DNA of 64,000 nt from Cyanobium sp. PCC 7001 (GTDB lineage: Bacteria > Cyanobacteriota > Cyanobacteriia > PCC-6307 > Cyanobiaceae). The DNA is taken from positions 1,990,670 through 2,054,669 of the forward strand of contig NZ_DS990556.1 in NCBI RefSeq assembly GCF_000155635.1. Reading direction: 5' to 3'. The notes under the pieces are model-generated. The model did no database searches. It worked only from the letters and a program-made list of their open reading frames with translations, and was not told where the DNA came from. A program made the translations under genes and the position numbers. Position 1 is the stretch's first letter. Each line of letters starts with the position of its first letter. Below, one piece after another: positions 33,192 through 35,457 of this stretch.

Positions 33192-33365
33192 ATGAAGGCC
33201 TCGGCCGCCATGCTTCCCGTGGTGGGCCGGTGGGAGCGGGCCCTGCCTGGCCTGCTCGCCGGGTGCATGCTCACGGCGGCGCTGCTGGCCGCCCCGGAGG
33301 CTGCTCAGGATCAGGCCGCCATCTGCCAGCGCCACAACGGCCCTGTGGCCTGCCGGGTCTGGTGA
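33192..33365 (+). CDS. Small exported protein with CRVW C-terminus
   Basis: A 57-residue frame starting at ATG ([12 protein letters not shown]). A hydrophobic segment ([20 protein letters not shown]) resembles a signal peptide, leaving a mature tail of about 20 residues with two cysteines ([15 protein letters not shown]). The pattern resembles short cysteine-pair exported proteins I associate with picocyanobacteria. It overlaps the convergent HNH gene by 55 bases. Function unknown. Confidence 0.5.
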
Positions 33366-33796
33366 GGCTCCTGCCCGTCGGCGGGCGACTCCGCGCAGGA
33401 CCCGTTCTGGCCATCGGCGGGGTCTGGGGCCGTCCACTCCAGCAGCCGCGCAGCCAGCTTCATGTCGCCCTGGGTCCAGGCCCGGATGGCCACGGCACGC
33501 CTGGGGTCGTAGAAGGACTGCTGGCGGTACCAGCTGAACGCCTCGCTGTCTCCCTTGCGGCCGTTGCAGGCCAGGCAGGCGGGCACGCAGTTCTCGTTCA
33601 CGCTCGGACCACCCCGGCTCTTGGGCAGCACGTGGTCGATGGATTCGGAGCGGCAGCCGCAGTAGATGCAGCGTTGCTGGGTGAGCTGGTGGAGGGATTG
33701 GCGCCAGCGGCGCGCTCGCAATTTGGGACAGAGTTCATCCAGAAACACCGCGTCTCTGGTTGGTGCGTGACGTGACGCCCAATCCCTGGCCTGCAT
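33311..33796 (-). CDS. HNH endonuclease
   Basis: A 161-residue protein. Zinc cysteines in CIYCG (Cys43, Cys46) pair with CLACN (Cys74, Cys77). The HNH core has Asp54-His55 in [12 protein letters not shown] and Asn78, with [16 protein letters not shown]. The first about 110 residues are the compact, conserved-looking part; the C-terminal about 45 residues are Pro/Gln-rich and may be dispensable. It is divergent from the SNF2-type helicase gene with at most about 75 bases between the starts. Role likely in DNA cleavage, but its target is unknown. Confidence 0.85.
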
Positions 33797-33870
33797 TCGC
33801 GTGGCTCGGTTGACGGGAGTTTGCCGGCAGTGTCCAGGGTGGCAATGTGTCGTGGACTGCCATTCCGCGC

Positions 33871-35457
33871 ATGCGTTGCCTGTTGCGGTTGGGGGCCTCC
33901 GGACGGATCGAGGTGATCAGCCCCTTCGATGCGGTCACGAGTGCCCAGCTGCGGGCGATTCGTCCGCGGGGCACCTGGTTGCCGCAGCGCCGCTGCTGGG
34001 AGTTTCCCCTCGAGGCTGCGGCGGCCCTGCAGGCCCAGCTGGCCGGCCGCTTTCCCCTGGAGCCCGAGCTGGAGCGCTGGTTGTCCTGGCTGGCCCAGCC
34101 GCTGCCGCCGCTGCCCCCCCATCGGGAGCTCGTGCGGGCGGCAGCCGCGGATCAGCCCCTGGCCGACGGCCGCACCCTCTTCGCCCACCAGCGGGCCGCC
34201 GTGCGCTGGCTGCTGGCCCGGCGCGGCGCCGTACTGGCCGATGCCATGGGCCTGGGCAAGACGCTCTCCTCCCTGGTGGCCGCCCGGGCGATGGTGCGCT
34301 GCGCCGATTGCCGCATCCTGGTGGTGGCTCCGGCCGGTCTCCATGACCACTGGCGCGCCGAGGGCCTGGCGCTGGGGCTCCAGCTGGAACTGCACAGCTG
34401 GGCGCGGCTGCCGCCGGAGCTGCCCCCCGCCGGCACCGTGCTGATCGTGGATGAGGCTCACTACGCCCAGAACGCCCGCACGGCCCGCAGCCAGGGCCTG
34501 CTGCGGCTGGCGCGCCACCCGCGGCTGCGGGCCATCTGGCTGCTCACCGGCACCCCGATGAAGAATGGCCGGCCGGCCCAGCTCTTCCCCCTGCTGGCGG
34601 CCATCGACCATCCCCTGGCACGGCAGCAGCGCGCCTACGAGGAGCTGTTCTGCCAAGGGCACTGGCGCGACCAGGGTGGCCGCCGGGTGTGGCAGGCCAC
34701 GGGCGCCAGCAACCTCGCCGAGCTGCATCGCCTCACCCGGCCGCTGCTGCTGCATCGCCTCAAGCAGGACTGTCTGGATCTGCCTCCCAAGCAGCGCCGC
34801 TGCATCCCCGTTGAGCTGGACACCGCCGCCGCCAGGGGGTTCCAGCATCGCCTCCAGCGCAAGGTGGAGGACTACCGCCGCCGGGCCGCCCGGGGGGAGG
34901 TGCGCCGTGACGCCGAAGTGCTGGCCGTGCTGACGGCCCTGCGCCAGATTGCATCGGACTACAAGCTGCCGGCGGCCCGGACCCTGATCAGCACCCTGTT
35001 GGCCCGGGGGGAACCGGTGGTGGTGTTCACCGCGTTCCGCAGCACCGCCAGCCTGCTGCACGCCCAACTGGGCGGGGTTCTGCTCACCGGTGCCCTGCCC
35101 CCGGCCCAGCGGCAGGGCCTGGTCGATGGATTTCAGGCTGGCCGGCAGCCGCTGCTGGTGGCCACCTTCGGCACCGGCGGCCTCGGATTCACCCTGCACC
35201 GGGCCCGTCATGTGGTGCTGATCGAGCGTCCCTGGACCCCGGGCGATGCGGAACAGGCCGAAGACCGCTGCCACCGGATCGGCATGGGGGCGCCCCTGTG
35301 CTGCCACTGGTTGCAGCTGGGTGTGGCCGATCAGCTGGTGGATGGTCTGATCGCCAGCAAGGCCGAACGGATCGCCCTGCTGCTGCAGCGGGGTGAGCAG
35401 CAGCTGCGCCGCCGGAGTCTGGCGGCGATGGTGCGGCAGCTGATGCGGGAGTGGTGA
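33871..35457 (+). CDS. HARP-like SNF2-family DNA helicase/translocase
   Basis: A 528-residue product from ATG 33871; GTG 33847 is eight codons longer. The N-terminal about 60 residues ([21 protein letters not shown]) resemble a HARP domain, the annealing module of SMARCAL1. The SNF2 core follows: DAMGLGKT (motif I), VDEAHYAQ (II), LTGTPMKN (III), then the second lobe with [19 protein letters not shown] and EDRCHRIG. Such enzymes move on double-stranded or branched DNA and can rewind or regress forks. It is divergent from the HNH gene. Confidence 0.88.

Follow-up and report, generated by a model that had tools for sequence, protein, structure and literature searches.

The window analysed here, a 64,000-nucleotide stretch of the 2.83 Mb picocyanobacterial genome of Cyanobium sp. 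PCC 7001, carries two divergent genes: one for a stand-alone, zinc-type HNH endonuclease of 161 amino acids (33311..33796, reverse strand), and one for a SNF2-type double-stranded DNA (dsDNA) translocase of 528 amino acids counted from its ATG (33871..35457, forward strand; in-frame alternative start GTG at 33847). The original prediction, drawn from the letters of the sequence, took the two as the separated halves of a fork-remodeling module with a HARP-like N-terminus, acting in repair or defense. The neighborhood it described is true and deeply conserved and its domain reading is largely sound; its functional claim overreached. At about an even chance, we favor a reading in which two genome-maintenance enzymes share a divergent intergenic region, one a core, self-sufficient HNH nuclease and the other an accessory SMARCAL1/ZRANB3-like SNF2 motor. 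Because the nuclease is retained where the motor has been lost, these are probably two tools at a shared spot and not the halves of one machine. As a pair they are ordinary in kind; the HNH nuclease, which stands alone and is highly conserved, is more striking.

The pattern of loss carries this reading. Relatives were searched in 119 genomes, 73 of them in the picocyanobacterial family; among those 73, both genes are present in 55, HNH only in 8, neither in 10, and SNF2 only in none. One of the eight HNH-only genomes (G013) has the locus at a contig end, and seven of the ten lacking both genes are assemblies 53–77% complete, in which the neighboring epimerase gene is also missing (six) or cut within (one). 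A class sample of 338 genomes gave HNH in 48/48 family members and SNF2 in 29/48; that is, HNH stands without SNF2 in 8/73 genomes of one collection and in 19/48 of the other. All 14 genomes of the Prochlorococcus-like genus g18 lack SNF2 and have HNH in two or three copies, and the genus clusters with a named Prochlorococcus in a PdxA tree (a quick tree, in which the four loci L091, L120, L136, and L157, labeled HNH-only, are contig ends and not proof of SNF2 absence). Two or three HNH copies are found in some of the smallest sampled genomes (1.6–1.7 Mb). The extra copy in g18 is more divergent and sits at a separate locus; the copy examined (L096, 4149-4490) is without the conserved promoter described below.

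Named sequence records tell a similar story. Among 80 HNH loci kept from 585 matches, 65 have a divergent SNF2 gene, 4 are cut off, and 11 are without SNF2; all 11 are titled Prochlorococcus, with about 5 kb upstream covered. Distances were compared for Prochlorococcus loci, among them 11 without SNF2, in all of which the HNH active site is intact. Measured to 14 marine Synechococcus, the ratio of HNH distance to PdxA distance is 0.35 in 17 SNF2-bearing Prochlorococcus loci (of 19 so titled, L139 and L151 being excluded) and 0.42 in the 11 SNF2-less ones, while SNF2 itself changes at the rate of PdxA (distance ratio 1.03). Outside the family, one genome of the class sample (G254) has SNF2 at E ≤ 1e-40. 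A single outside HNH match at E ≤ 1e-14 (G393, E 2.3e-16) was set aside as a different protein; no open reading frame (ORF) in the 9 kb read from its 58.7 kb contig is SNF2.

Both genes look active from their sequences. The HNH protein matches PF01844 at E 3.7e-9 and 37 bits, above the curated cut-off of 21.4, and HNH_5 at E 7.9e-7; both genes of the pair lie at the coordinates and on the strands originally given. Membership in PF01844 is backed by the catalytic-type residues D54, H55, N69, and N78 as well as by the domain score; these four, together with the zinc-type CxxC...CxxC cysteines C43, C46, C74, and C77 and with K81, are invariant in 44/44 aligned members. The core is held in common with the PF01844 HNH nuclease of PDB 4h9d (phmmer E 6.4e-7), whereas the picocyanobacterial protein has a conserved N-terminal flank and a C-terminal flank, FYDPRRAMAIRAW, beyond it. 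The predicted HNH structure (pLDDT 57.3) was too poor for use.

The SNF2 assignment was equally borne out, with PF00176 at E 6.9e-26 (91.5 bits) and PF00271 at E 1.5e-13 (51.4 bits), both above cut-off. Motifs I (Walker A), II (DEAH), III (GTP), and VI (QAEDR.HR.G, in its general form QAxDRxHRxG), which with the two domains place the protein among superfamily II SNF2 ATPases, are kept in 33–34 of 34 and 42–43 of 43 aligned members. Sequence comparison points to the SMARCAL1/ZRANB3-like group: phmmer gave 138.6 bits to human ZRANB3 and 116.4 bits to human SMARCAL1, both used in versions not taken from a database record, against 66.7 bits for the top PDB chain, a comparison that used the GTG-start form of the protein. 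The GTP..RP and QAEDR.HRIG signatures of ZRANB3 are shared by this motor. The AlphaFold (AF2) model is of good quality (pLDDT 88.5, pTM 0.84). Searched whole with Foldseek and VIA-align, it matched SNF2 motors (CSB, INO80, ISW1, Chd1); no HARP-only or UvsW entry stood among the 50 matches listed by each, a result of little weight given that motor matches take up the lists.

How far the N-terminus resembles HARP required separate attention. In the AlphaFold model the first 57 residues fold as beta-beta-alpha-beta-beta-alpha, within a predicted N-terminal unit of residues 1-62 (33871..34056, forward strand), and the motif on which the original prediction relied falls on the second hairpin. That motif is genuine and partly conserved, with G34, W43, F45, and P46 invariant in 34/34 members. 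SMARCAL1/HARP is arranged in a similar way, a W-x-F motif lying in a compact unit N-terminal to a SNF2 motor; the window protein differs in having no Pfam HARP match. PF07443 found nothing in the window genome, the full SNF2 protein, 34 family members, two isolated N-termini, or the 338 class genomes, and a formal HARP domain call was rejected on these grounds. The search itself works, because a human HARP2 segment scored 88 bits in a search of the same kind.

Profile comparisons leave a weak similarity. Built from 15 N-termini of family, plasmid, and phage proteins, one profile reached 11.3 bits against the HARP fragment of PDB 4o66, a score equaled by 0 of 2000 shuffles, and a family-only profile reached 3.5 bits (9/2000 shuffles as high); against HARP2, the N-terminus profiles gave 1.7 bits (10/2000) and 1.8 bits (21/2000). 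The probabilities assigned by hhalign were 8.4% and 1.5%. In the reverse direction, a two-sequence HARP profile scored 2.3 bits on the window N-terminus (4/1000 shuffles as high), −1.2 to 2.7 bits on ten other family N-termini (2 to 59 of 1000), and at chance level on a Thermus phage N-terminus (259/1000). When the 15-sequence profile was run against the PDB, three matches up to E 10 came back, none a HARP entry. With Pfam negative, the profile signal weak, and no HARP in the PDB search, this predicted unit is at most HARP-like: the motif and a faint resemblance survive from the earlier reading, and the significant HARP match it looked for does not appear.

The head-to-head arrangement is as the original prediction had it, with 74 bp from ATG to ATG (50 bp if SNF2 starts at GTG 33847), and it extends well beyond close strains. 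Both genes lie head to head, 64–225 bp apart between match ends, in 54/73 family genomes, and the 65 of 80 named loci noted above agree with this; in the 55th genome with both (G030), a contig end inside HNH splits the pair. In the window the two are divergent ORFs and not one polypeptide, as in 55/55 SNF2-bearing family genomes. Conservation is not confined to the pair, however. The order pdxA - epimerase - small ORF - HNH - SNF2 - lipoprotein - abrB is largely syntenic, and in 40 longer loci, chosen around HNH or SNF2, the epimerase was present in 39 and pdxA in 38. Since unrelated neighbors are as faithful as SNF2, adjacency is not specific to the HNH-SNF2 pair.

The intergenic region was compared across 147 HNH upstream regions (118 of them distinct and at least 60 bases long), with patterns composed after the data were seen. 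The SNF2-bearing group includes two loci at contig ends, L120 and L136, and the SNF2-less group includes L096, a second HNH copy. In the window, read by eye, the candidate HNH −10 is CAAACT (33818..33823, reverse strand), and the comparison places a candidate −35, TTGCCA here and mostly TTGAC in relatives, at 33840..33845 on the same strand. A −35 of the TTGAC/TTGCC type occurs in 92/99 SNF2-bearing and 18/19 SNF2-less distinct regions, and paired −35/−10 elements occur in 87/99 and 14/19. Directly upstream of the −35 lies a box (33846..33867, reverse strand) that overlaps the SNF2 leader in the window; many relatives have it as TGCAnnnnTCGAcACA, including some SNF2-less Prochlorococcus, and the window departs from that searched pattern at three places. 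A loose form of the pattern matches 46/99 SNF2-bearing and 9/19 SNF2-less regions. An inverted repeat touching the start codon (for example, CCGAG-GTA-CTCGG) is found at 49/99 SNF2-bearing loci, where shuffles average 6.2 and reach 14 at most; it is not clearly enriched at SNF2-less loci (5/19; shuffles: mean 2.7, maximum 8), and CCGAG...CTCGG does not occur in the window's 33797-33867 region. The predicted shared region is real as a divergent intergenic region, but its clearest signals appear to serve HNH.

A regulon for the upstream box was sought and not demonstrated. A scan of 20 genomes that tolerated at most two mismatches gave 30 matches, 11 of them at the HNH locus, including all 6 perfect ones; the 19 off-locus matches compare with 9 for a control pattern (the box read backwards). 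The two off-locus matches with one mismatch coincide with unrelated genes or with their starts, and the remaining 17 have two mismatches. No match came from five of the 20 genomes, nor from the box in the window, with its three differences. For SOS control, a LexA-like pattern was found in 0/58 SNF2-HNH intergenic regions.

The closest SNF2 relatives found outside the family are borne on mobile elements. Plasmid DEAD/DEAH (SNF2) helicases of Microcystis, Nostoc, and Synechococcus PCC 7502, the top five of 152 plasmid records matched, are 39–44% identical over the motor, some also over the N-terminal unit; they differ in bearing an extra N-terminal region of about 125–230 residues. Among the best 80 of 570 IMG/VR contigs, the viral relatives examined, the top three are 41–44% identical to the window SNF2. 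The best PHROG match is phrog_62 (E 2.7e-68), a family of phage DNA helicases, whereas here the gene is chromosomal and in a conserved block; the 20 matches among annotated phage records are weaker, and not one spans 80% of the protein. HNH was not found within about 4 kb of the five plasmid relatives by annotation and pattern, in plasmid gene tables that are incomplete, and its pattern occurs at 1 of the 80 viral loci, about 4.7 kb away. The regular expression used recovers 80/80 known family HNHs. The extra plasmid region (L061-L064) has a shared CD(G/Y)...DGxGFNxxDxxxGHWLA-like motif, missing from the chromosomal SNF2, and no significant Pfam match.

Several explanations compete for these facts. 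In the one closest to the original prediction, SNF2 regresses or opens a fork, HNH cleaves the branch, and the divergent promoter region co-expresses a split ZRANB3-like module. In its favor, the divergent adjacency is deep, the motor scores highest with ZRANB3, SNF2 was never found without HNH in the family, and the two are jointly absent from three near-complete genomes. We nevertheless judge it unlikely, since HNH is retained, conserved, and even multiplied without SNF2, block synteny with equally syntenic flanking genes can account for the adjacency, no HNH was found within about 4 kb of the five plasmid relatives or at more than one of the 80 viral loci, and there is no Pfam HARP match. 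Retention of the nuclease without its motor weakens the paired module as originally put; that idea has partial support, with deep adjacency but a partnership that is not obligate. ZRANB3 itself combines a SNF2 motor with HNH in one protein, whereas here the genes are separate and divergent and HNH persists alone. One account describes PIP, NZF, SRD, and APIM elements in ZRANB3, for which the Pfam matches of the window pair offer no counterpart, and an ATPase core and HNH that are functionally interconnected, although some mutants indicate that HNH alone suffices for cleavage (PMC12841045); the literature searched yielded no such result on the window pair. A modular variant, in which a core HNH structure-specific nuclease has an optional SNF2 fork-remodeling partner from mobile elements, some streamlined Prochlorococcus having dropped the motor and one genus having extra nuclease copies instead, strikes us as quite improbable. 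If it were true, the motor's contribution to the nuclease could be asked within one bacterial family.

It could also be that SNF2 is a helicase domesticated from a phage or plasmid, that its role lies outside repair, such as RapA-like clearing of RNA polymerase or other proteins, and that it sits beside HNH by an accident of synteny. Its plasmid, viral, and phrog_62 relatives and the housekeeping neighborhood would suit this idea, which we doubt: the motor scores closer to ZRANB3/SMARCAL1 than to PDB SNF2 remodelers, and the RapA model scores 20.9 bits against a cut-off of 576. The defense role raised by the original prediction finds little support, and an anti-phage or restriction-type locus seems very improbable indeed. 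PADLOC models do match in part, the motor to ZorD, DpdE, and DrmD (best 81.9 bits) and HNH to PDC-M01B and PtuB (best 33.5 bits); against this, NCBIfam ZorD, DrmD, and DpdE give the motor 35.8–48.5 bits under cut-offs of 500–1500, the neighbors examined are housekeeping genes with no companion defense gene among them, and HNH is a near-universal core gene of the family. Membership in Zorya, DISARM, or Dpd was rejected for these reasons. A SNF2 helicase of an Antarctic Synechococcus-like organism has been named drmD, without a complete DISARM system (PMC9716671).

The reading of a core nuclease with an accessory motor has its own difficulties. SNF2 stands without HNH in 0/55 SNF2-bearing genomes, and the near-complete G020, G037, and G060 (94–99%) retain the epimerase and lack both genes; together, these would be consistent with SNF2 depending on HNH but not the reverse. 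Relative to PdxA, HNH is also somewhat faster evolving at loci without SNF2 (0.42 versus 0.35, p 0.013, phylogeny uncorrected). The ZRANB3/SMARCAL1 likeness of the motor was scored with sequences not taken from a database record, and a family profile narrows the margin, with 173.7 bits for ZRANB3 and 141.1 for SMARCAL1 against 116.7 for Ino80 (PDB). Finally, no biochemical evidence for either protein was found in the open-licence literature, where searches combining HARP/SMARCAL1 with bacterial HNH, and picocyanobacteria or Prochlorococcus with SNF2/HNH, returned no description of this pair.

Under the favored reading of two tools at one spot, HNH would be a core, family-specific, metal-dependent DNA nuclease with its own conserved promoter, able to act alone and perhaps nicking or cutting damaged or branched DNA in genome maintenance. 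SNF2 would be an accessory ATP-driven dsDNA translocase of SMARCAL1/ZRANB3-like type, active in remodeling branch points; a grip on branched DNA is the probable role of its N-terminal unit, and the motor may re-anneal or regress such DNA or displace bound proteins. Because its nearest outside relatives are plasmid- and phage-borne, it is probably a domesticated mobile-element helicase, an origin that we infer along with these substrates and activities. Where both are present, the two may target common stalled-fork or recombination intermediates, with the nuclease independent of the motor.

If this is correct, nearly all sampled picocyanobacteria retain an uncharacterised HNH nuclease more conserved than the neighboring PdxA. 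Its near-universal presence, its conservation beyond that of PdxA, and its multiple copies in some of the smallest genomes would make it a good target for understanding DNA-damage handling in these abundant cells, and its SNF2 neighbor offers biochemistry a small bacterial SMARCAL1/ZRANB3-like motor.

Some further observations concern related genes and the surrounding block. An HNH gene of Prochlorococcus PCC9511, PMM1528, is reported to be raised under UV (PMC2921402). The window genome encodes a second HNH protein (L235; MGHVLVLNASYEPLN...), with 48% identity across 54 HNH-core residues, and similar matches occur in nearly all genomes of one search of relatives. Judged by relative genome position (from the gene count and the position of the paralogue in G022), PMM1528 is presumably more likely to be this widespread paralogue than the window HNH. 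In G020 and G037 (L231, L232, L239, L240), from which HNH and SNF2 are absent, the epimerase adjoins a weak match of the lipoprotein gene. The IMG/VR 'viral' contig L333 is probably host DNA, since it carries both HNH and abrB, just as the picocyanobacterial block does. A small ORF in the window (33210-33365, forward strand; MLPVVGRW...) is convergent with HNH and overlaps its 3' end; it has counterparts in 33/40 family loci (E ≤ 1e-3), and its product looks like a short secreted peptide.

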